Source: Anaerolineae bacterium (GTDB lineage Bacteria; Chloroflexota; Anaerolineae; DUEN01). From it: a DNA stretch of 64,000 bases. The DNA is taken from assembly GCA_025060615.1 (NCBI GenBank), contig JANXBS010000009.1, positions 1 to 64,000 on the forward strand. Direction: 5' to 3'. Under the pieces are notes generated by a model. That model was not told where the DNA came from, did not search any database, and was given only the letters and a program-made list of their open reading frames with translations. The position numbers and the translations under genes were made by a program. Below are positions 1,356 through 41,752 of the stretch, piece by piece; position 1 is the stretch's first letter, and every line of letters starts with the position of its first letter.

Positions 1356-3274
1356 GGCTCAATGACCTCCCGTTGATACCTGGCCAAGGCCAGCAGCGGA
1401 AAGTAAACAGGATAGAGATGATAGCGGAGATAAAAGGCGCGCGGAAAGCCGGTCCCCGTAAAGGCCTCCTCCTTCCAGCTTCCGTCCCCTTGCTGGGTTT
1501 CAATGAGGAAATGAACCCCCTTTCGAGCTTCGGGGCTCTTCGCCTCCCCCGCGGCGATCAATCCCAGCAGGGCCCAGGCGGTCTGGGAAGCCGTGCTTGG
1601 CCCTTGACCGCGAAGGCTGAGATCTTCATAGCTGGCGCAACTTTCCCCCCACCCTCCGTCCTCGTTCTGATGTGCTTTCAGCCAGCGAACTGCTTTCTGG
1701 ATATGCGGGCTTCTCATGTCCTCACCAGCGGCCTTCAGGGCGGGCAGGGCCAGGCCAGTGCCGTAGATATAGTTGACGCCCCATCTCCCAAACCAGGCCC
1801 CATCGGCCTCTTGGGCTTTCTTCAGGTAGTCCATCCCTTTGCTTACCCATCTCTCGAATCCCCCGAGTGCGCTCAGGAACTCGATGGCATGGCTGGTAAC
1901 ATCTGGGCAGGTGGGGTCGAGAGGGGACACGAAGTCGGCGAAAGGGACATGGGCGAGGGCTTTCTTGTTGTTATCCCTATCAAAAGCGGCCCAGCCCCCA
2001 TCGCTGCTCTGCATTCCGATCACCCAATGGGCGGCCCGGCGAACGGCCTCTAACTTTCGCGCTTCCTCGAAGTCAGGCAGTTTCACCCGGAGCAACCCCA
2101 GGGGCACGACGGCCGAGTCGTCAATATCGGGATAATGACTGTTTTCGAATTCGAAAGCCCAACCGCCAGGCTCGAGCTGGGGATTCTTCACCGCCCAATC
2201 CCCTCTCGCCCGGATCTCCTTCTTCAGAAGCCAGCGGGCAGCTTGAAGCAATGCCGGGTGATCCGAGGGGAGCCCGGAATCGCGTAAGGCGATGACCGCC
2301 CAGGCGGTGTCCCAAACGGGAGAGACAGCCGGCTGGAGGCGAAAGCCCCTTTCATCATCTTCCAGGATAAAATCCTCGAGTCCCTTTAAGCCTCTCTGGA
2401 TCACCGGATGGCTATCCCGATAACCCAGCTCCTTCAGCGCGTAAAGGGAGTATATCCAAGGGAGCATAATGCCCCCCCAGCTCCCATCGGCATCCTGATG
2501 GGCTACCACCCACTCTTCGACCTTCTTAAGTGCCAACCCTCTTCCAGGTTTCCAAGGACTTTTCTGGTAACCTTTGAAGATCCGATTCGCGAGAAGGTAA
2601 AAGCGTTCCCAGGAGATGAGCCCTTTTCCATGATTTGGACGATGAGGCCGCTCCCCCTCGACCCAAAGCTCCGCTATGCCACATCCCTCCGGAACAGGAC
2701 GCACAGGGCGGAGATGTGAGAGAAGCGCCAGGGCCATGATTGTGGCTCGGGCCCAACTGGAGAACTCATAGATGTTGAAATAGAACCACTTGGGAAGGAA
2801 GATGATCTCCGGCGGGATCATAGGGATCTCGTCCCAAGGGAATTGGCCAAAGCAGGCCAACCAGACTCTGGTGATCACATTCGTCCGGGCCACTCCGCCT
2901 CGGGCGCGAATAAACTCGCAGGCTTTTCGCATGAAAGGCTCTTCAGCGGATACCCCGGCGAGCTTCAGGGCGAAATAGACCTGCACGCTCACGCTCAAAT
3001 CCCCCGGCCCGCCGTGATAGGCCGGCCAGGAGCCGTCTGCGCTCTGGCGGCTTTTAGCGAACTGGATGATGCGCTGTCTCCTCGCCTCGCTGATTTCTCG
3101 TCCCATGAAATGCATCACCGGGATATACCCAGCGGCCACAGAGGCATCAGCCTCCAGCTCCCCTATCCAATATCCTTCCGGGTTCTGGAGGCTGAGCAGG
3201 TGTTCGCGGGCCCGGTGAATTGCCCGTTGCAAGGCGCCGATCTCGAGGTCCACAGTGGCTTCCAGCTCCCTCAT
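1352..3274 (-). CDS. shc: Squalene-hopene cyclase
   Basis: This 640-residue enzyme cyclises squalene to hopene at the membrane. The DXDD protonation motif is present as DIDD at residues 383-386, and QW-type repeats are visible (QSADGSWPAYHGGPGDLS near 77-94, DADGSWGG near 261, others in the C-terminal half). Length fits bacterial SHC (about 630-720). Start ATG at 3274 has GGAGGT nine bases upstream. It lies 16 bp after hpnA and overlaps the squalene synthase start by ATGA, so the whole set reads as one operon. Function is secure from the motif and the context. Confidence 0.95.
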   Translation of the reverse strand: MRELEATVDLEIGALQRAIHRAREHLLSLQNPEGYWIGELEADASVAAGYIPVMHFMGREISEARRQRIIQFAKSRQSADGSWPAYHGGPGDLSVSVQVYFALKLAGVSAEEPFMRKACEFIRARGGVARTNVITRVWLACFGQFPWDEIPMIPPEIIFLPKWFYFNIYEFSSWARATIMALALLSHLRPVRPVPEGCGIAELWVEGERPHRPNHGKGLISWERFYLLANRIFKGYQKSPWKPGRGLALKKVEEWVVAHQDADGSWGGIMLPWIYSLYALKELGYRDSHPVIQRGLKGLEDFILEDDERGFRLQPAVSPVWDTAWAVIALRDSGLPSDHPALLQAARWLLKKEIRARGDWAVKNPQLEPGGWAFEFENSHYPDIDDSAVVPLGLLRVKLPDFEEARKLEAVRRAAHWVIGMQSSDGGWAAFDRDNNKKALAHVPFADFVSPLDPTCPDVTSHAIEFLSALGGFERWVSKGMDYLKKAQEADGAWFGRWGVNYIYGTGLALPALKAAGEDMRSPHIQKAVRWLKAHQNEDGGWGESCASYEDLSLRGQGPSTASQTAWALLGLIAAGEAKSPEARKGVHFLIETQQGDGSWKEEAFTGTGFPRAFYLRYHLYPVYFPLLALARYQREVIEP

Positions 3275-3290
3275 GGCGTTTAACCTCCGA

Positions 3291-4301
3291 TCAGGCTTTC
3301 ACGTATCCGTTTTCTTGAAACCACCTCACTGCCTTCTCCAGGCCCATCTCCACCGGCGTAGGGGTGAACCCCAGCTCCTCGACAGCCTTAGAGCAATCGA
3401 AAAAGCGGAACTCTCTGGCCGCCTGGACTGCCTCGACGGTGATCCAAGGTGCTCTCCCCAAAAGCCTTCCCACAAAGACCTCGCTAAGATATCCCATCGC
3501 CAGGGCGAAAAGAAATGGGATGCGAATGCGGGGCGGCCTGATCCCGGTCAGCCGGCCCAGCATCTCCAGGACCGCCTGGAAGGTGAGGTTTTCGTTCCCC
3601 AAGATGTATCTCTCCCCCACCTTGCCCTTCTCCAAGGCGAGAAAATGGCCTCGGGCCACGTCTTCCACATTCACCAGGTTGAGCCCGGTATCCACATAGG
3701 CCGGTATACGGCGATTCAGGAACGAGAGGATCAACCTGCCAGTAGGCGTAGGCTTCCTATCACAAGGACCGATAGTGGCAGTCGGGTTGACTACAACTAC
3801 AGGCAGCCCTTTTTGAGCCATCTCCAGGGCGACCTTTTCTGCCAGGAACTTGGAACGTTTGTAGTGGTTCGTGAGCTCCTCCGGCCGAGCGATGATGCTT
3901 TCCCGGCCCAGCCCCGTTTTCCGGTCAATTCCGATGGTGGACTCGGTGCTGGTATAGACAACCTTTTGAATCCTTTTCCGCGAGGCAGCCTCAAGGAGGT
4001 TGGCTGTGCCTTTCACGTTGACCTCATACATCACCTCCGGCCGGGGAACCCAGAAGCTGTAAAGCGCTGCTGTGTGAAAAAGGACCTCGCAACCCTCTAA
4101 GGCTTTTTCCAAAGTCGCTTGGTCTCTCAAGTCGCCTAGGGCCAACTCCACATCCAACCCTTCGAGGCTGCGGCGGTCGCTTCCCTCCCTCACTAAGGCT
4201 CTTACCTTAAACCCTTGTCGCAATAGCTCTCGAACCACATGGGCGCCGATGAACCCTGTCGCCCCGGTTACCAGCGCCTTCGGCCCATTACCTCGGCTCA
4301 T
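3291..4301 (-). CDS. hpnA: Hopanoid-associated sugar epimerase HpnA
   Basis: This is an extended short-chain dehydrogenase/epimerase of 336 residues. The N-terminal Rossmann motif GATGFIG is at residues 13-19, the catalytic serine region is VVYTSTEST and the YxxxK pair is HYKRSK. Sequence style and position between hpnG and shc match HpnA, a hopanoid cluster member thought to act on the side-chain sugar. The start chosen is the second ATG (4301), which has GAGGGA just upstream; an ATG four codons earlier is possible. The start lies inside the end of hpnG, so the two are translationally coupled. Confidence 0.88.
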   Translation of the reverse strand: MSRGNGPKALVTGATGFIGAHVVRELLRQGFKVRALVREGSDRRSLEGLDVELALGDLRDQATLEKALEGCEVLFHTAALYSFWVPRPEVMYEVNVKGTANLLEAASRKRIQKVVYTSTESTIGIDRKTGLGRESIIARPEELTNHYKRSKFLAEKVALEMAQKGLPVVVVNPTATIGPCDRKPTPTGRLILSFLNRRIPAYVDTGLNLVNVEDVARGHFLALEKGKVGERYILGNENLTFQAVLEMLGRLTGIRPPRIRIPFLFALAMGYLSEVFVGRLLGRAPWITVEAVQAAREFRFFDCSKAVEELGFTPTPVEMGLEKAVRWFQENGYVKA

Positions 4302-5040
4302 CGAATCCCTCAAGGTATGAGTTCAGGAACAGTTGCAGGCTCTTTCTTGCCCTCCAAGAGCCCATAATGAGGCCTGGCAAGGCCAGCATTTCCAAAGGAT
4401 GAGAGGCGAAGTGGAGGGCAGCTTGCCCGATTCGCCAATCCCCTCGCACACCAACGAGGCGCTCCAATCGAGGCAGCCGCTCCTCTAAAGCATCGGAGAT
4501 GAATCGGACGGCCAGAAAGGGGATCCCCCGGGATATGGCGGCTTCTGCCTCCCAGAAGCTCTCCATGTCCACCACCTGGACCCCATACTTTTCCGCTAGG
4601 GCGAGCTTCTCCTGCGGGTCGGAGATAAAGCGTGAGACCGTCAACCCTCGGCCCCAAGTGAAGGGGATCCTGGCTCGAGCTAAAGCTTGGGCCGCCAACA
4701 GGCAAAGGCGATCATCGCTGGGGAGCTCACCTTTCTCCGGCTGCAAAACGCTCTGGCAGATCACAGCCTCTCCCTTCCTCAGGCCTCTAGCCGTCCCCCC
4801 CCCAAAGCCGCAAGAGAGCAGGGAGTGGAGCGGATATGCCTGGGCCAAGGAGTCGACCGCCTCCCTGCTCTGCCTACCCATCCCAGTCACCGCTACCGCC
4901 ACCTCTTTTCCCCATAACCTCCCCACCATCACCCAGCCTCCTGGCAGCTTCAGCCGGCTCTCGATCTCCATGTCTCTAGCAGCCCATTGGATTTCCTGCG
5001 GCAAAGCCGCCAGGATGCCTATCCTTTGCGGATGAGCCAT
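4288..5040 (-). CDS. hpnG: Hopanoid-associated nucleoside phosphorylase HpnG
   Basis: This 250-residue protein belongs to the purine nucleoside phosphorylase / MTA-SAH nucleosidase fold. It shows the early ILAALPQEI strand, the glycine-rich CGFGGG segment and VDMESFWEAEA, the usual Met-Glu-Ser substrate-binding motif. In hopanoid clusters HpnG removes adenine from adenosylhopane to give ribosylhopane (known for the family). The partner HpnH radical SAM, which makes adenosylhopane, is not in this window. The start at 5040 was chosen over an upstream in-frame ATG (5142) because homology begins there and GGTGAG precedes it. It is the first gene of the operon. Confidence 0.85.
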   Translation of the reverse strand: MAHPQRIGILAALPQEIQWAARDMEIESRLKLPGGWVMVGRLWGKEVAVAVTGMGRQSREAVDSLAQAYPLHSLLSCGFGGGTARGLRKGEAVICQSVLQPEKGELPSDDRLCLLAAQALARARIPFTWGRGLTVSRFISDPQEKLALAEKYGVQVVDMESFWEAEAAISRGIPFLAVRFISDALEERLPRLERLVGVRGDWRIGQAALHFASHPLEMLALPGLIMGSWRARKSLQLFLNSYLEGFDEPR

Positions 5041-11095: not shown

Positions 11096-11917
11096 ATGCC
11101 CTTTACAGTAGCTGATTTTCACGATTTGGCGCGGCTGCTTTACGAACATCCCGAATGGCGAGCTGAGATACGTCGGCTGGTGCTCACGGATGAGGTCCTA
11201 GAGTTACCAGCTTTGATCCGCCAATTGGTCGAAGAGCACCGAGCCTTTGCTGAGGAGCAACGTGCTCTGGCTGAAGCTCAACGGCTTAGCGAAGCGCGCC
11301 TAGCTCGCGTTGAGGCCGCTATTGAGCGCTTAGTTGAGGAACAACGCGCCTTGGCCGAGGCGCAGCGGCGCACCGAGGAGCGGGTGGGCCGGTTGGAGAT
11401 GGCCCTGACGGAGCTGGCCGAGGCGCAGCGGCGCACCGAGGAGAGCATACAAAAGCTGAGCGAGACCCAGGCCGGGCTGAAGGATCGCCTCGACCGACTC
11501 GAGGCTATCTTCGGCGCCACTGTGGAGGATGAAGCAGGCGGAGTCCTCCGCTCCATCTTAGAGGAAAAAGGCTATCGTCCTCTGGCAGAGCCATACAATT
11601 TGGCTTTGGATGGAGAAGTGGATGTGGTACTGCCACTGGCCGCACCAGATGGAGACATCGTCTGGGCTGTGGCTGAGGCTAAGGCCCGCCTGAGCTACAG
11701 CGATGTACGGGCCTGGGCTCAGCGTATGAAGTCAGCGGGGTGGCAACAGCGGTTAGCAGCATACCAGGTGCCAGGCCCGTTCTTGGTCTATGCTTTTGGA
11801 ATTCGGGTGGATCGAAGTGCGATAGAGGAGGCGGAACGGCAGGGAATTGGGCTGCTCACAGGTCAAGGGGAACGAGTAGCACCCAAAGGATTGGTGGGCG
11901 CGGAGACGAGGCCATAA
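11096..11917 (+). CDS. Coiled-coil protein with C-terminal PD-(D/E)XK nuclease-like domain
   Basis: The 273-residue protein has a helical N-terminus (DFHDLARLLYEHPEWRAEIRRLV) and a long coiled coil at about 45-140 built from EEQRALAEAQRRTEE-type units. A compact domain follows. There GEVDVVLPL and WAVAEAKARLS give the D-(x)n-ExK spacing of a PD-(D/E)XK nuclease. Such proteins are common in multiple copies in Chloroflexota and Cyanobacteria and are annotated DUF3782-like. A 29-bp exact repeat inside the coiled coil points to recent internal expansion. Whether it cuts DNA is unknown; no partner gene is seen. Confidence 0.75.
   Translation: MPFTVADFHDLARLLYEHPEWRAEIRRLVLTDEVLELPALIRQLVEEHRAFAEEQRALAEAQRLSEARLARVEAAIERLVEEQRALAEAQRRTEERVGRLEMALTELAEAQRRTEESIQKLSETQAGLKDRLDRLEAIFGATVEDEAGGVLRSILEEKGYRPLAEPYNLALDGEVDVVLPLAAPDGDIVWAVAEAKARLSYSDVRAWAQRMKSAGWQQRLAAYQVPGPFLVYAFGIRVDRSAIEEAERQGIGLLTGQGERVAPKGLVGAETRP
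11352..11443 (+). repeat. Exact 29-bp direct repeat, 63-bp period, inside the coiled coil
   Basis: The same 29 bases occur at 11352-11380 and 11415-11443. The 63-bp period equals 21 codons or three heptads, so the repeat keeps the coiled-coil register. Confidence 0.9.
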
Positions 11918-31409: not shown

Positions 31410-33389
31410 CTATCTCCCAAGAGCCTTCCTCCCCGCCTCCAAGAGCTCGATGATCGCCTCTACATCGTATACGCAACCGCCCCAGGTGCCGCCGCTGGCG
31501 TTCTGTAGCGCTGCCCATAGGCGTGTGTCATCGGGCAGGTCGGGATCAGAGGTTAGGTCGGGATGTGGGTCTCGCGACGCTAACACAGCCGCCCCTTCCT
31601 CTGGACTGTACCGCCGCCCATCATGGCCGATCAGGTTCACGCTCCCCGTCAAGTGAACGCAATCAATAATGATCTGGATCGTGTCCCCTTCGCGCACGCG
31701 GCCAATGGGGCCGCCGGCCAGCGCTTCCGGACTCACATGGCCGATGCACGCGCCCGTGCTCACCCCGCTGAACCGGGCATCGGTGATGAGCGCCACCTCC
31801 TTGCCCCAGGGCAGGTGCCGTAAGGCCGCCGTGAGCTGGTAAACCTCTTCCATGCCGGACCCCATCGGCCCCCGACCAATCAGCACGATGACGTCCCCTG
31901 GCCGGATTGGCCGGTCGTTCAGCCCTTTGACAGCGGCGATGGCTGCCCGTTCGTTGGTGAAGACACGCGCGGGGCCGATCTTGCGATAGACGCCGTCGGG
32001 ATCCACTACGCTGGGATCAATCGCTGTGCTCTTGATCACAGAGCCCTCCGGGGCCAAGTTGCCCACCGGAAATGTGACGGTGCTGGTAAGCCCCCGTTCA
32101 CGCGCTCGTTGCGGGCTCATGATCACCTCGTCAGGGTCCACCCCATCCTCGCTTCGTAGCCGCTCGCGCAGCCGTTGGCGTCGTTCGCTGCGCTCCCACA
32201 TCTCTAGCATCTCACCCAGGGGCCGGCCCTGCACGGTCAGCGTGTCCAGACGTAGCAGCCCCAGATCACGCAGATGCAGCATCACCTCGGGCACGCCGCC
32301 AGCCAGAAACACGCGCACCGTGGGATGGCCTACTGGCCCGTTGGGCAACACGTCTACCAACCGCGGCACCATGCGGTTGATCCGCGCCCAGTCCTCCAAC
32401 GTCGGCCGTCGCAACCCCGCTGCGTGGGCGATGGCTGGGATATGCAGCAACAGATTGGTGCTGCCGCCAAACGCGGCATGGGTGACCATCGCATTGTGGA
32501 TCGAGTCCTCGGTCAGGATGTCGGCGATCGTGATGCCAGCCTCTTCCAGAGCCATCAACGCCTGCGCCGAGCGCCGCGCCATATCAAGCCAGATCGGCTG
32601 GCCAGATGGCGTAAGGGCTGAGTGGGTCAGGGAGAGGCCCAGCGCCTCGCACACAACCTGACTGGTGGCCGCGGTGCCCAGAAACTGACACCCCCCGCCA
32701 GGCGAGGCGCAGGCGCGGCAGCCCAGCTCGGCGGCCTCCTCTAGGGTGATCAGCCCATGGGCGAAGCGGGCACCCAGCGATTGAACCTTGCCGGCGTCCT
32801 CGCCCTCTGTCGGAGGCAGGGTGACGCCGCCGGGCACCACAATACAGGGCAGCCTGCGTTGCGCTGCCAACGCCATCATCATGGCGGGCAGCCCTTTATC
32901 GCAGGTGGCCACCCCCATTACCCCGCGCCGCGTGGGCAGGGAACGGATGAGCCGGCGCAGCACGATCGCCGCATCGTTACGGTAGGGCAGGCTGTCGAAC
33001 ATGCCAGTTGTGCCCTGGGTCCGCCCATCGCAGGGGTCGGAGACGAAACCGGCGAAGGGAATACACCCCTGGCGGCGGAACTCCTCCGCTGCAGCTTGCA
33101 TCAACAGTCCGACCTCCCAGTGGCCGGTGTGATAGCCTAGGGCGATGGGGCTGCCATCAGGGGCGCGGATGCCACCTTGAGTGCTTAGGATCAGAAACTC
33201 CTTCCGGCGGAGTTGAGCGGGGTCCCAGCCCATGCCGACATCTTGAGTGAGGCCGAAGATCTCGCCGCTGGGTGCATGAAGTAAATACTCCGCGTCGAGG
33301 GGAAGCCGGCCTGCTGGCCCGGGGGCATGAGTGCGGACAGCATAGATGCTAGGATCTGAGGAATCCATTGAGATGAACGCAGCTTTCAT
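31410..33389 (-). CDS. IlvD/Edd-family dehydratase, D-xylonate dehydratase type (YjhG/YagF)
   Basis: A 659-residue iron-sulfur dehydratase. Cluster cysteines are likely C120 (DPCDGRTQG), C163 ([10 protein letters not shown]) and C234 ([14 protein letters not shown]). The length and the C-terminal TGSVNLIG and ISFSGVS-like parts fit the YjhG/YagF branch, which converts D-xylonate to 2-keto-3-deoxy-xylonate, rather than IlvD (about 560). No other pentose genes are adjacent. GAGAGGAG lies before the ATG. The substrate call is by family only. Confidence 0.82.
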
Positions 33390-33580: not shown

Positions 33581-33640
33581 CTTGGCACGTCGTCAAAAAT
33601 CCATTCCATGAGCGTGCCACTCGCTCAGGAGGAGGTAATC

Positions 33641-34333
33641 ATGGACATTGGCAAGGCTTTCGGCTTCGTCTTCGAAGACCCCGAGTGGTTAATCAAGGTG
33701 CTGGTCGGTGGCCTCGTGATCCTGGGCGGGGTACTGCTCAGCCCGATCCTGGTCGGATTCTTCCTTCTGTTCGTCCTGGAGGGGTATTCCATCCAACTAT
33801 TGAAGAATGTCCGAGACGGCCTGAAACATCCTTTGCCGCGCTGGGACAACTGGGGGGACAAGGCCGTCAAAGGTCTCAAGCTCTTCGTTATCTTCCTGAT
33901 CTGGGCGATCCCGATCATCGCCGTATCGTTGGTGTCCTTTGTGATCTCAGCCCTGGCCGCTGACAACCAGGATCTTACCCCTGTAGCCGCCGCAGCCTCT
34001 ATTTGTCTCGCATGCGTATCTTTCCTGTGGGGTATCTGGTTAGCCGTGCTCTCGCCGGCCATTTGTGTCCGCTTTGCGGAGACCGAACAGATCAGCGCTG
34101 GTTTTGAGCTGAGCAGGCTTTTGGCTTTCATTCGCGACAACCTTGGCGACATCATCGTTGCCGTGTTGATCAGCCTGGTCGCCAGCATAGTGGCTTTGAT
34201 CGCCGGCTTTATCCTCTGCGCCATCGGCCTGTTGTTCACTGGCTTCTGGGCAGGGTTAGTGCAATTCCACCTGTTCGGCCAGATCGCCCGGCGTGATGCG
34301 GCCCGGCGCGCCGCATCACCGGTGATGGCATAA
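33641..34333 (+). CDS. DUF4013 integral membrane protein
   Basis: A 230-residue protein with four to five membrane helices (about 16-40, 70-95, 110-135, 155-180 and 185-205). The pattern of a first helix pair followed by LLKNVRDGLKHPLPRWDNW is the DUF4013 signature. GGAGGAGGT precedes the start at 33641. It is monocistronic and of unknown function. An imperfect hairpin with TTTTT after it (around 34400-34447) may end the transcript. Confidence 0.75.
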   Translation: MDIGKAFGFVFEDPEWLIKVLVGGLVILGGVLLSPILVGFFLLFVLEGYSIQLLKNVRDGLKHPLPRWDNWGDKAVKGLKLFVIFLIWAIPIIAVSLVSFVISALAADNQDLTPVAAAASICLACVSFLWGIWLAVLSPAICVRFAETEQISAGFELSRLLAFIRDNLGDIIVAVLISLVASIVALIAGFILCAIGLLFTGFWAGLVQFHLFGQIARRDAARRAASPVMA

Positions 34334-34443: not shown

Positions 34444-35277
34444 TTAGGGCCTGCTCAAGAGCAGGCGAATCAGCTCATCCGCCTGGGTAAAGTCTGGGAT
34501 CAGCAGGTCAGCTCCGGCGCGGATGAGCCGCTGTCGTTTCCGCTCGTTCCAGCCGCGCCGATGGATCTCGTCTGACGCCACGCCCAGCGCGAGGGCGCCG
34601 CGCGCTTTCGCCTCGCGTATCTCCACCGGCCCATCGCCGACCACCAACAGTTCAGGCCCACGCAGGCCGTGCTCGTCCAGGATGCGCTGGATGATCCGCG
34701 CCTTGTCATGCGCTTCGGTCTCGTCCAGCGCGCCGTAGATGCCGCCGGCGAACAGCGGCGCAATCCTCAGCGCGCCAGCTTCTTCCACTACATAGACGTG
34801 ATCGGACCCTGATGCTAGATAGAGGATGACGCCGTGCGTCACCAGCGCCTCTAGGAAGCGCCGGGCGCCGGCGATCATCAAATCGTCCGCGGTGACTTCG
34901 CCGCGCATCAGGCGGCCCAATCGCTCGCGCACTGGCCGCAGCAGACGCTCGTTGTAGATCGCCTTGTATTCCCGCGCGGTGCGCGGCTGCCGGGTCAGCC
35001 TGTGTCGGCGCACCGCCTCCTCCAGCCATTCCATCTGCCGGATTGTCAGGATACCGGTGGAGCGGTCCACGTATTCGGCTACCTCGGCCTCGATGGCCGC
35101 CCGCCGCTCGGCCGAGACCTCTGCGCCCTCGCAGATCATCTCCACCATCAGCGGCCGCATGATCTCCTCCCATCCCTGGCGAATGGTGGAGATCGTGCCG
35201 TCAAAGTCGAAGAGGGCATGGCGTACGTAGCCGACAGAAGCGGATGGGTTCAGGACTTCTAGCCAGTCATCGGTCAT
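34444..35277 (-). CDS. HAD-superfamily hydrolase (phosphatase)
   Basis: A 277-residue HAD enzyme. The nucleophile motif is DFDGTIS, motif II is YLASGSD, and motif III/IV is LLVVGDGPVEIREAKARGALALGVASDE, with helical cap insert after the first motif. It follows the PfkB kinase gene by 76 bp in a set with a GmhA-like SIS protein, so a sugar-phosphate phosphatase role (the place of GmhB in heptose synthesis) is reasonable, though it is not GmhB-like in sequence. Confidence 0.82.
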   Translation of the reverse strand: MTDDWLEVLNPSASVGYVRHALFDFDGTISTIRQGWEEIMRPLMVEMICEGAEVSAERRAAIEAEVAEYVDRSTGILTIRQMEWLEEAVRRHRLTRQPRTAREYKAIYNERLLRPVRERLGRLMRGEVTADDLMIAGARRFLEALVTHGVILYLASGSDHVYVVEEAGALRIAPLFAGGIYGALDETEAHDKARIIQRILDEHGLRGPELLVVGDGPVEIREAKARGALALGVASDEIHRRGWNERKRQRLIRAGADLLIPDFTQADELIRLLLSRP

Positions 35278-35353: not shown

Positions 35354-36397
35354 TCACGAAGCTACTTCTGCCTGCCGAGCCAGCGTCAGCCGTTCCCGTA
35401 CCTCGTCGGGCGAGGCGGTACCGGTCTGGTTAAGTTTCTCCACTACCACCGCTGCGGCCAAATTGCCCAGGCTGCCCGCTTCCTCCAGGGTGGCTCTGGC
35501 CGCTAGCGCTGCGCCCAGCGCCGCCAGGAACGTGTCGCCAGCGCCCACGATGTCCAACGGCGGGCGCACAGGGGCCGCGGGCAAGTGGGTGACACCGTCT
35601 TCGCGACAGAGCAAAGCCCCATCGGCTCCGAGGGTGACAAAGCAGGGACGCCCAGCGAGTCGAGCTAGGGCCTGTCCCATGACGGCCAGCTCAGCACGGT
35701 CAAGGGGCCCAAGGCGGCTAGGAGCGATTGCCTGGGCGAGCTCCAGCTCGTTCGGTTTGAGGATCATCGCTCGAAAGTCGGCGATGTGTTTGCGCGAATC
35801 TACCACGAACGGGCGTCGCGGCTCGGCGGCGGCCAGCTCGATGAGCGCGCTGCGCACGCGCGGCGTGACCACGCCGGGGTCCAGTTGGTCGCCGATGACC
35901 ACCGCGTCTACGTCCGGGACGGCATGGCGCAGCGCTTCGATCACAGCGTCTTCCAAGTTAGCCGGCAGCGGCGTGAAATCCTGGAAGTCGAGTCGGCTGT
36001 CCTCCTGTTGGACGCCGCCATAGCCGCGTCGGATGGGCTTGATATACGTTGGAGTCGTGCGCTGTGGGGAACGGATAACAGCGGCGATGTCAATGCCGCA
36101 GGCCGTCAACTCCCTCATCAGGATGTCGCCGCGCCAGTCCTGTCCCAGCACGCCAATGGCCTGAACGCGCCCGACCCCCAGCGCCGCTAAATTGGCGGCC
36201 ACGTTGGCGGCGCCGCCGGGGCTGTATGTTTCCGCGACGATAGGCAAGGGGAAGCGCGGCGTCTCCCGCGACAACTCTGAACGGGTCATGTCAGCGTACC
36301 AGTACGCATCCAGGCAAAGATCGCCGATGAGTAACACGCGGGCGTTTCGGATCGCGCATAGCAAGACCTCCAGGCGATCAAAGGATGGGAAGCTCAT
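35354..36397 (-). CDS. PfkB-family sugar kinase, HldE kinase-domain-like
   Basis: A 347-residue carbohydrate kinase. The N-terminal LLIGDLCLDAYWYAD and PGGAANVAANLAALG are of the RfaE/HldE domain I type, and the ATP/anion-hole motif is DIVGAGDTFLAALGAAL. Known relatives phosphorylate D-glycero-D-manno-heptose-7-phosphate at C1. No nucleotidyltransferase domain is attached, and none is adjacent. AGGAGG lies nine bases before the ATG. Confidence 0.85.
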   Translation of the reverse strand: MSFPSFDRLEVLLCAIRNARVLLIGDLCLDAYWYADMTRSELSRETPRFPLPIVAETYSPGGAANVAANLAALGVGRVQAIGVLGQDWRGDILMRELTACGIDIAAVIRSPQRTTPTYIKPIRRGYGGVQQEDSRLDFQDFTPLPANLEDAVIEALRHAVPDVDAVVIGDQLDPGVVTPRVRSALIELAAAEPRRPFVVDSRKHIADFRAMILKPNELELAQAIAPSRLGPLDRAELAVMGQALARLAGRPCFVTLGADGALLCREDGVTHLPAAPVRPPLDIVGAGDTFLAALGAALAARATLEEAGSLGNLAAAVVVEKLNQTGTASPDEVRERLTLARQAEVAS

Positions 36398-36427: not shown

Positions 36428-38101
36428 CTATCGTCTCTCACCTACACTGCCAAAGAAGTGATCTTCCAACATGGCACACAGCGCGTGGTAGATGCGGACG
36501 TGCTGCTCCTGGATGCGGCCAGTAAGGATGCCAGGGGCGTGAATGGTTACATCAGCTAGCCGGCCTAGCTCGCTGTCCCGCTCTCCAGTAAGGGCGATCA
36601 CTCTCAGATTCAACGCGCGAGCCACCTGCGCGGCCAGGCAGACATTCCGTGCATTCCCGCTGGTGGAAATGCCTAGTAGCACATCACCTGGGCGGGCCAA
36701 CGCGTACAGCTCTTGAGCCAGCCCCATTGCCCGCTGAAGGTTGTCGTTGTCCACCGCGCTGGCCAGCGATGGATTTGCCCCTAGGACAAGCGCCCGCAGC
36801 CCGCCTTCCAGGCTCGCGGCTAGGCGCTCGCCATCAGGCGCGGCCAAAAGGCGCTGGCGGATGCGTTCCGGTAGGGGACGAGGACGAGCATAGGACTTGA
36901 GCAGTTCGCCGGAGATGTGTAGCGCGTCGGCCATGCTGCCGCCGTTGCCGGCCAGGAAGAGAGTGCCGCCGCGTTCCAGGCTATGGGCGATGAGGAGAAA
37001 CGCCTGAGCTAGCGCTGGCCCGGCCGATGTCAGCTCTGGCGACCGTTGGAGAAGCGCGCGAAGCTGGGCGGCCGCGGCCGGAGATCGCCGCGTTAGGGCC
37101 TCGATGGGATCTACCGGCTCGACGCGCTGCGATGGCAACGGGACCCGATCCAGCGCCGCCACCACGCGATGATGCAGGTTGGGAATGGTCTGCACATGAT
37201 CACCCGTGATGTGGAATCCCTTGCCCCCCAGCGACGTAGGGCGGTTAACGACGTTCTTGCGTGGGCGATAGTAGTAAGCGGGATCGTCCATACCCACCTT
37301 GCTCCGATAATCACCCAGTGGGATCAAGTCGAAGTTGGCCGTGGTAATGTGGGCAACGGTGTAGCCCAGGTTGCGGGCGATGGAAAGCGCCTTGAGGAAC
37401 ACCTCAGGGCCGGTGACGGCTGAGCCGAAGTTGAGGAAGACGCCCCCCTCTAGCTCGCTGACAGAAGCGCAATAGATCTTGAAGTCCTGGCCTGAGGCCC
37501 AGCCCAGGATGCCGAAGTCGCAGGCCGGATGCTGATGGATGATGTCGGTGCCAATGGTGACATGGACGGTAAAGGGAATGCCCAGACGATAGGCTACGTA
37601 GGCAACGCTGATCTCGCGATGACGGAAGCGTTCATCTTGGGCGATGAAACGGCCGATGGATTCGCCGTATCCCAGGCCGAGGCGAGCCCCCTCGCGCAGC
37701 GCCTGGTGCATGAGCGCGCTGGTCTCCTCTACCATACCGAAGGTGCCATCTTCAATGGAACTGGCGACATCCTCGCTCGTCTCACCGATCAGGGCCAACT
37801 CGAAGTCATGGATTGAGCCGGCACCGTTGGTGGCGACGTGAGTGACGATGCCGCGCTCCATCAAGTCAATCAGCAGGCGAGAGAGGCCGCACTTGATTAC
37901 GTGCGCGCCCATCATCCAGATCACAGGCCGGCCGGCGCGGCGAGCAGCAACGATGCGATCGGCTACCTCGTCCAACTCGGGGTTCTCAAAGGGGGGAGCG
38001 GGCGCAGCTGGATCAATCAGATCAGCCAGGGTGACCAAATTGCGCCGCTCGCCCAGGTGGTAAGTACGAATACCGGTGAGTTCCAACGCTCGATAGGGCA
38101 T
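36428..38101 (-). CDS. Fusion protein: deoxyhypusine-synthase-like domain plus GmhA-like SIS domain
   Basis: A 557-residue, two-domain protein. Residues 1-320 have a Rossmann-like, NAD-type layout (MMGAHVIKCGLS, ATNGAGSIHDFELALIG, VTIGTDIIHQHP) with weak likeness to deoxyhypusine synthase; function unknown. Residues 360-550 form an SIS domain with GmhA signatures (AGNGGSMADALHISGEL, STSGNARNV and QEQHVRIYHALC, holding the catalytic Glu and His). GmhA turns sedoheptulose-7-phosphate into heptose-7-phosphate. AGGAG lies seven bases before the ATG at 38101. It heads a transcript with the kinase and HAD genes. Confidence 0.75.
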   Translation of the reverse strand: MPYRALELTGIRTYHLGERRNLVTLADLIDPAAPAPPFENPELDEVADRIVAARRAGRPVIWMMGAHVIKCGLSRLLIDLMERGIVTHVATNGAGSIHDFELALIGETSEDVASSIEDGTFGMVEETSALMHQALREGARLGLGYGESIGRFIAQDERFRHREISVAYVAYRLGIPFTVHVTIGTDIIHQHPACDFGILGWASGQDFKIYCASVSELEGGVFLNFGSAVTGPEVFLKALSIARNLGYTVAHITTANFDLIPLGDYRSKVGMDDPAYYYRPRKNVVNRPTSLGGKGFHITGDHVQTIPNLHHRVVAALDRVPLPSQRVEPVDPIEALTRRSPAAAAQLRALLQRSPELTSAGPALAQAFLLIAHSLERGGTLFLAGNGGSMADALHISGELLKSYARPRPLPERIRQRLLAAPDGERLAASLEGGLRALVLGANPSLASAVDNDNLQRAMGLAQELYALARPGDVLLGISTSGNARNVCLAAQVARALNLRVIALTGERDSELGRLADVTIHAPGILTGRIQEQHVRIYHALCAMLEDHFFGSVGERR

Positions 38102-40476: not shown

Positions 40477-40542
40477 AGGGTGTCTGAAAAGCCTCGACCG
40501 GCCCTTTTTGTTTTTGCTCGGATGGTTTTTACGACACCCTCG
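40477..40542. repeat. 66-bp MITE-like inverted-repeat element
   Basis: The ends GAGGGTGTC (40477-40485) and GACACCCTC (40534-40542) pair perfectly, and similarity goes on inward (15 of 18 matches, including AAAA and CC). It looks like the two ends of a small IS without a core. No target duplication is evident. Confidence 0.5.
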
Positions 40543-40561
40543 CAAAGACAAGGAGCTCGAA

Positions 40562-41752
40562 ATGCCTCAGAGCCATGTGGCTTATGTCAGCGATTTTCTG
40601 CTAAGCGTTCGCGCCATCGCCCTCGCTGGGCAGGATTTACAGGATGCGCTGGCACAGGGCGATGCTGAAGCTCAGGATTTCGCCATCGCGGAGTTGGAAC
40701 AGGCCTACGCGCGCTACGATCAGGCCAGCGAGAGTTATCGGACGTTTATGTTGGGCCGGCTGGGCACCACCCGCTCCGCTGTCCAAGCCGAGCGGGTCAG
40801 TGTGGACACCCTCGGCAGCGTGGTAGCCGACCTTCAGGTAGCCCATGTGCTGTTAGCGGCCGGGCAATCTGTTGGCGAGATAGAAGAGCCGGCCATGCGC
40901 ACCCGAGCAGTGGGCCCCGCGCCGATGCTGGCCGACGCACTTCGATCACTGGATGAAACCGCGCGGGGCCTGCGATGGGCGCTAGCCATGCCGATCTCAC
41001 GGCCTGTCGCGGCCACGCGCAGCCTTTTTGGCCCTCCTCAGCCGGTGGTCATCGAACCGGTACAATCGCCATCGGTTGAACAGGCGCTAAGCACTTTTCG
41101 CAGCATCGCCATGGACACACTGGAGCATGTGGTGGCCGGCGTACACAAGGCGATCCGATCCTGCATCGAGGCGATCTCGAGCTTGGATGAGAAGGCCATC
41201 TTGAGCGCCCTGGAGATGTTGGTAGGGGAGATCGGGGCCTTACCTGAGATAGGCCGTCTGATCCGGTTAGGAGTTGACCGCCTAAAGAAAGCCATCACCG
41301 CCATCATCACTTTCCTCGGCGATGAGGTCATGGACGCGCTCAAGGCCAAATTGAAGGAAATGGTGCAACAGTGGCTGAGCGCGCAGCAGTTGGACGCTGA
41401 GCTGCGCAAGGCATTGAACATCCAGGCCACGCAAAAGCTCATCGAGGAGGTCAGCGCCAGGCCCGGCCTGATAGGAGATCAGCTCGACCAAGCCAGCACT
41501 GCTATCAAAGTGCTGCGCGTTCGCTTCGATGGGCATGTGGAGACGATCGCGCAAGCTTCGAAAACAGTGGCAGTGGTCGGGGGCTTGCTCGCCACGTCGG
41601 GGCTGGGCGTGAAGGCCGTGCTACTCGCCGCGGTAGCCTATCTAGCGATCATCGCCTGGGCTGTGGGGATGGGGATAGACTACGCTGATTCTGGCCGCAT
41701 CCTCAACCGGGTGCAGGGGATCGGGATGATCGCCCAGGAGCTGATCCGGTAA
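40562..41752 (+). CDS. Unknown helical protein with C-terminal membrane segment
   Basis: Not recognised. It is 396 residues, almost wholly alpha-helical by composition, with many hydrophobic-heptad stretches (residues 10-110 and 185-330). A hydrophobic segment near 350-385 (TVAVVGGLLATSGLGVKAVLLAAVAYLAIIAW, in two parts) may be a membrane anchor. The start at 40562 follows AAGGAGCTCGAA. It is followed by a strong hairpin. No catalytic motif could be seen. Confidence 0.6.
   Translation: MPQSHVAYVSDFLLSVRAIALAGQDLQDALAQGDAEAQDFAIAELEQAYARYDQASESYRTFMLGRLGTTRSAVQAERVSVDTLGSVVADLQVAHVLLAAGQSVGEIEEPAMRTRAVGPAPMLADALRSLDETARGLRWALAMPISRPVAATRSLFGPPQPVVIEPVQSPSVEQALSTFRSIAMDTLEHVVAGVHKAIRSCIEAISSLDEKAILSALEMLVGEIGALPEIGRLIRLGVDRLKKAITAIITFLGDEVMDALKAKLKEMVQQWLSAQQLDAELRKALNIQATQKLIEEVSARPGLIGDQLDQASTAIKVLRVRFDGHVETIAQASKTVAVVGGLLATSGLGVKAVLLAAVAYLAIIAWAVGMGIDYADSGRILNRVQGIGMIAQELIR

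Follow-up and report, generated by a model that had tools for sequence, protein, structure and literature searches.

The window, which is the whole 64,000-nucleotide stretch of DNA that was analyzed, carries on its minus strand a fused gene (36428..38101) encoding a chain of 557 amino acids. The N-terminal domain, referred to here as NDOM (residues 1 to 312; 37166..38101, minus strand), belongs to the GSU2086 family and has the fold of deoxyhypusine synthase (DHS) and AgrE, while the C-terminal domain (residues 326 to 557; 36431..37126, minus strand) is a GmhA-like SIS domain. The gene runs from an ATG at 38101 to a stop codon at 36428 to 36430 with no internal stops, and translation might also begin at a TTG lying 12 codons upstream. 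The first-pass annotation had placed a two-domain fusion at this position; its coordinates were right and the gene is a single intact one, although the annotation omitted the minus strand. An assembly artifact or frameshift was ruled out as the source of the fusion because ten other genomes have the same NDOM-SIS chain. The fused gene heads a trio on the same strand, being followed after 30 bp by a PfkB-family kinase of 347 amino acids (35354..36397, minus strand) and then, after 76 bp, by a HAD-family hydrolase of 277 amino acids (34444..35277, minus strand). Near the trio, with an opposite-strand open reading frame (ORF) between, lies a D-xylonate dehydratase gene of the YjhG/YagF type (31410 to 33389, minus strand; TIGR03432, 1166.5 bits; cutoff, 808). 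The plus-strand ORFs at 33608 to 34333 and 40508 to 41752 had no NCBIfam match at an E value of 0.001.

NDOM residues 6 to 311 scored 416.5 bits against the NCBIfam model NF052581, named "GSU2086 family" (cutoff, 250), demonstrating membership in that family; no Pfam model matched over NDOM above the Pfam cutoff. The AF2 model of NDOM had a mean pLDDT of 94.4, and all of its listed best structural matches were AgrE/ArgZ, DHS, or LOR/SDH proteins, with Z scores of 17 to 20 (20.2 over 221 residues for AgrE and 19.7 over up to 267 residues for DHS). When compared by hhalign to a DHS profile built from the genomes of archaeal relatives, the NDOM profile aligned with an E value of 2.7e-6 and was collinear over nearly the whole domain. 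The family profile also found ArgZ (E value, 3e-4) and AgrE (E value, 5e-4) by sequence through a common NxAxxxHDxE motif. A profile was needed for this, as a PDB sequence search with NDOM alone returned chance matches only. Structure and profile thus bear out the DHS likeness that had been ascribed to the N-terminal half. Considered alone, this domain has the AgrE/DHS fold and is not a well-described enzyme that is always fused to SIS. The window protein had no match to the DHS model PF01916 at an E value of 0.1, and two Woesearchaeota matches reached 30 to 32 bits (cutoff, 27). It was likewise unlisted at an E value of 0.1 for TIGR00300, the AgrE ornithine cyclodeaminase model (cutoff, 410.8 bits), against which one relative scored 30.7 bits. 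NDOM shares with DHS and AgrE/ArgZ/TIGR00300 a fold (Z score, 18 to 20) and aligned NAD motif positions but differs from them in its low structural identity (9 to 19%), its sugar-phosphate gene context, and its invariant basic residues R19, K237, R243, R279, and R287. It also lacks the catalytic lysine of DHS (WGK motif; Lys329 in the human enzyme), which has no conserved counterpart in the profile alignment; near that position R287 is invariant, and some groups have E or R in place of K282. Since this lysine is absent, the chemistry of NDOM need not resemble that of DHS.

Residue conservation was assessed in 98 aligned NDOM domains, comprising 92 domains and the six second copies of tandem NDOM-NDOM proteins from Paenibacillaceae (L091, L094, L096, L097, L101, and L107). 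The motif N92-G-A-x-x-x-H98-D99-x-E101 (37799..37828, minus strand) aligned to the NAD motif of DHS. NAD sites have been given for Pyrococcus horikoshii DHS (PMC7432094), and these contacts aligned with N92-G93-A94, H98, T254-A255, and D301 of NDOM, a mapping made partly by eye because hhalign shifts in the last third. NDOM also keeps D258 and the glycine loop. These alignments suggest that NDOM binds NAD in the manner of DHS; a point against this is that outside the main NDOM groups L, R, K, and N occur in place of D301. Apart from the second tandem copies, H98 was invariant, as was H67 of the H67-x-x-K70 motif (37892..37903, minus strand); K70 was K or R in 92/92 other domains, and H189 (37535..37537, minus strand) was His in 91/92. 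In the second copies, H67 was replaced by N or K, K70 by G, H98 by Q, and H189 by Q (5/6), while D99, E101, D186, D206, E233, K237, R243, D258, R279, R287, and H302 were kept. The first copies kept nearly everything, with all four lost positions, K70 among them, intact. In DHS, the dimer interface houses the active sites, and the trypanosomatid enzyme pairs an active subunit with a dead paralogue that activates it (PMC3663545). By analogy, the loss pattern in the tandems is what would be expected if the active site were formed at an interface and one of the two partners were dead. Because they are lost in the second copies and DHS provides this precedent, H67, K70, H98, and H189 are the best candidates for catalysis. 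The residues kept in the second copies may, on the same analogy, serve structure or contribute to the site of the partner.

The SIS half scored 65.6 bits against SIS_2 (cutoff, 27) and matched GmhA structures (1x92; E value, 1.4e-25), in agreement with the GmhA likeness noted at first pass. It shares with GmhA, a sedoheptulose-7-phosphate isomerase, the fold, the phosphate loops (GNGGS and STSGN), and four residues aligned to the Zn and acid-base set, namely, H395 and E399 (36905..36919, minus strand) and Q531 and H534 (36500..36511, minus strand). However, it scored 101.5 bits against the GmhA equivalog TIGR00441 (cutoff, 209.45), and, like the other SIS domains of the class B setting described below, it has lost the Asp of the GmhA "TTD" motif and carries a common loop insertion, of about 25 residues in the window. 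The earlier statement that the GmhA motifs are kept is thus correct for the four residues and the two loops but not for the TTD Asp.

An HldE-like kinase and a HAD protein had been reported beside the fusion, and both are present. The nearest solved relative of the kinase is the heptose-7-phosphate kinase HldA (4e84; E value, 9.8e-20), although its score against the HldE model TIGR02198 was 183.5 bits, below the cutoff of 345. In a FastTree phylogeny it fell within a clade of 63 class B kinases (support, 100) that lies apart from HldA. The HAD protein scored 51.3 bits against PF00702, and its AF2 model (pLDDT, 96.1) gave Z scores of 18 to 21.5 with Rv3400, beta-phosphoglucomutase, and sugar-phosphate phosphatases. 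It has the fold and cap type of the beta-phosphoglucomutase-like family but shares only 15 to 20% identity with it, and no GmhB (HAD-IIIA) model was among its matches at an E value of 0.1. Judged from its modeled structure, it may be a mutase or a phosphatase.

A scan of species genomes yielded at least 582 encoded NDOM relatives, of which the best 80 were taken as loci. NDOM is mostly unfused to SIS, which elsewhere is a separate gene. The NDOM-SIS fusion is rare: the window and ten of these best 80 loci have it, 11 cases in all, found in Chloroflexota and in thermophilic archaea, namely, a Bathyarchaeota metagenome-assembled genome (MAG) and three Brockarchaeota/Crenarchaeota MAGs; the closest other fusion was 93% identical to the window in NDOM. 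The fused SIS halves formed one clade (support, 100), and the fused NDOMs fell into a group that also includes the unfused NDOMs of L044 and L045 (support, 88). The simplest history would be a single fusion with a neighboring gene followed by transfer between Bacteria and Archaea. Other fusions were HAD-NDOM (L059, L074, and L093), ROK-SIS (L076), and the six Paenibacillaceae NDOM-NDOM tandems. In a Chloroflexota sample, 8/301 genomes passed the NF052581 cutoff, and the long frame was present in the window's genome only. With respect to a viral or phage origin, there was no phage match and no viral fold match at an E value of 0.001.

Gene neighborhoods were described from the 56 NDOM loci flanked on either side by 3 kb or more. 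A search for the trio showed that kinase and HAD genes are conserved with NDOM: within 3 kb, a kinase homologue was found in 46/56 loci, a HAD gene in 34/56, SIS in 17/56, ROK in 15/56, and GH38 in 4/56. The neighboring kinases came from nine named phyla. The rough chance rate for a neighboring kinase is 0.35% per locus, and since the loci are related, they do not count as 56 independent trials. Two settings were distinguished. The class A loci of Woesearchaeota and of a single Chloroflexota genome (G270) combine NDOM with a GT9 glycosyltransferase, with a kinase that reaches or exceeds the HldE cutoff, and, mostly, with a GmhA-like SIS. Those of Woesearchaeota add a GmhB-like HAD, and three of them an HldC-like nucleotidyltransferase. 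Such heptose-type operons (L082, L083, and L088 to L090, with HldA, GmhB-like, and GT9 genes) seem unusual for Archaea. In class B, the window's type, and related clusters, the neighbors were ROK, ABC importers, GH38 mannosidases, DUF4432, and GFO/IDH/MocA with a TIM-barrel isomerase and SDR, with transketolase or deoC adjoining. In one Brockarchaeota locus, the gene after the HAD gene (L043, 7420 to 8640) showed a weak mannose-6-phosphate isomerase (ManA) likeness (32.8 bits, below the cutoff). Module neighbors in two other loci (L120, 12705 to 14231; L079, 9770 to 10636) had no Pfam or NCBIfam match.

Among known systems, the closest to the window's arrangement is GSU2085-2087 of Geobacter sulfurreducens, a class A operon with the gene order hldE-GSU2086-gmhA, whose NDOM belongs to the same family as that of the window (416.5 bits versus the cutoff of 250) and which, like the window, has GmhA-like and HldE-like neighbors. 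The Geobacter genes are separate and include a bifunctional HldE, whereas the window has a fused SIS, a kinase from a separate clade, and a different HAD. In Geobacter, hldE, GSU2086, and gmhA have matching electrode-growth defects of -3.1, -3.2, and -3.7, respectively (PMC5585712), which could be explained by polar effects. A search of the available literature for DHS-like proteins in connection with heptose, phosphoheptose isomerase, or epimerase gave no result, and just one paper there names GSU2086.

The first-pass annotation had hinted at a modified heptose or other sugar-phosphate pathway lacking the nucleotidyltransferase. The window's cluster indeed contains no nucleotidyltransferase. 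Elsewhere in the genome there are an HldA-like kinase (C1; 297.5 bits) and an HldC-like protein (C15; 165.5 bits, below the cutoff of 181.5), and the fusion is the only clear GmhA-like protein. Because these HldA-like and HldC-like genes lie elsewhere, the window's trio is a separate module, although in this genome the fusion might supply the HldA/HldC route as well. Three Chloroflexota genomes with NDOM and the class B kinase type have no real HldC (G142 and G168, none; G136, 24 bits), and so the class B module can do without it. Across 48 genomes, NDOM and HldC were not associated (P = 0.44; HldC tallied by hand). Since 0/10 genomes passed the HldD cutoff, whether class A or not, that comparison did not discriminate the idea that HldD is replaced. 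A plain ADP-heptose pathway was rejected as a label for the module, and the heptose part of the earlier proposal is weakened, because the kinase falls short of HldE, the HAD is not GmhB-like, and the three genomes lack HldC. The broader alternative in the same annotation, another sugar-phosphate pathway, stands as a conserved sugar-phosphate module.

Its recurrence across many bacteria and archaea suggests that the trio belongs to a sugar-phosphate pathway not yet described. We propose that the fused gene would encode a bifunctional enzyme in a pathway of three to four steps. The SIS half would interconvert a ketose phosphate and a manno-configured aldose phosphate in the manner of GmhA, and NDOM, with NAD, would oxidize one hydroxyl of the same phosphosugar. 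The keto intermediate would then rearrange, most simply by epimerization, and be re-reduced by NDOM, after which the kinase would phosphorylate the anomeric oxygen and the HAD protein would take off one phosphate. The observations behind this proposal are the fold, the conservation of motifs and of neighbors, the single fusion clade, and the four residues lost in the tandem copy; the use of NAD, the phosphosugar substrate of NDOM, and the order of steps are our interpretation of these. We consider it an even bet that NDOM is an NAD-dependent enzyme that performs a redox-neutral step on a phosphosugar common to the SIS and the kinase, and epimerization is our guess at the likeliest form of that step. 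The full proposal, in which a DHS-fold enzyme using NAD, or in some lineages nickel-pincer nucleotide (NPN), epimerizes a phosphosugar by hidden redox in an undescribed pathway of Bacteria and Archaea, is more tentative. A point against the main proposal is that class A operons already contain the ordinary heptose steps, which leaves the added step of NDOM unexplained. The DHS-fold members with assigned reactions act on amines (spermidine and ornithine), and so an NDOM branch in sugar-phosphate metabolism would, if true, widen the chemistry of this fold and provide a function for the named but uncharacterized GSU2086 family, which counts in Geobacter electrode growth. The family itself already had a name (NF052581); what is added is a branch of this fold that had not been described, within a module absent from the literature searched. 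The four residues lost in the tandem copy directly suggest which mutants to make, and the fusions show which partners to assay jointly.

Two further readings concern what the pathway is for. In one, the SIS product, a manno-aldose phosphate, would be converted by the kinase to a 1,6(7)-bisphosphate and by the HAD protein to a 1-phosphate, which a nucleotidyltransferase encoded elsewhere would activate; NDOM would set one stereocenter in this variant route to heptose- or mannose-1-phosphate for a nucleotide sugar. The company of NDOM in class A (SIS, HldA, GmhB-like HAD, HldC-like nucleotidyltransferase, and GT9) and the HldC-like and HldA-like genes in the window's genome, with its single convincing GmhA-like protein, are consistent with such a route. 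Nevertheless, the three Chloroflexota genomes without HldC and the lack of association between NDOM and HldC argue against it, and the class B importers, ROK proteins, and GH38 mannosidases suggest uptake and breakdown instead, making this route rather unlikely. Breakdown of a manno-configured sugar or glycoside is itself a serious possibility, if somewhat short of an even chance, and as a statement about the purpose of the pathway it overlaps with the enzyme proposed above. GH38 would release the sugar, the ABC system import it, ROK phosphorylate it, and SIS isomerize it, and NDOM, kinase, and HAD would pass it to central metabolism. Consistent with this are the ROK and GH38 genes within 3 kb of NDOM, a single NDOM-KIN-GH38-HAD-SIS operon (L073), ABC importers at three loci (L084, L104, and L120), the aldose-epimerase-like DUF4432, and the weak ManA-like neighbor. 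However, no transporter, ROK, or GH38 gene was seen beside the window's own trio, the neighbors differ among clades, and a kinase plus a phosphatase would be odd in one catabolic route.

Other readings concern NDOM itself. That it is a noncatalytic scaffold or sensor joining SIS and kinase would accord with its fusion to several partners and with the persistence of the second tandem copy despite the loss of its likely catalytic residues. We regard this as very improbable, given the numerous charged and glycine positions that do not vary among the 98 bacterial and archaeal domains and the confinement of residue loss to one tandem copy while the first keeps all. If NDOM is catalytic, its hydride carrier might be NPN instead of NAD. 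TIGR00300, the curated family closest to NDOM, carries the NCBI name "ornithine cyclodeaminase, nickel-pincer nucleotide-dependent," and, in line with this name, the TIGR00300-like genes of a Chloroflexota sample (taken as NF052581 hits below the cutoff) co-occurred with LarC (79/85 versus 77/208; hand count). A search of the available literature that combined NPN and ornithine cyclodeaminase gave no result. NDOM itself was not significantly associated with LarC (P = 0.07). LarC exceeded its cutoff in 32/50 NDOM-positive genomes but in 0/3 Brockarchaeota/Crenarchaeota MAGs, and G168 was also without it; the window's genome has LarC. Incompleteness of MAGs can account for some of these absences, but hardly for all. 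Because LarC is below the cutoff in 18/50 NDOM-positive genomes, NPN is no general requirement, and we consider it an improbable carrier for the family. Within the Paenibacillaceae, larA was not found among the scanned neighbors of the tandem NDOM clusters, and clusters of this kind (L091, L107, L094, and L097) contain larC1, larC2, a NicO nickel transporter, and genes resembling larB and larE, an observation in favor of NPN. These genes flank the tandem NDOM cluster at 2537 to 4960 and 10766 to 11272 in L091 and at 11254 to 12282 in L107.
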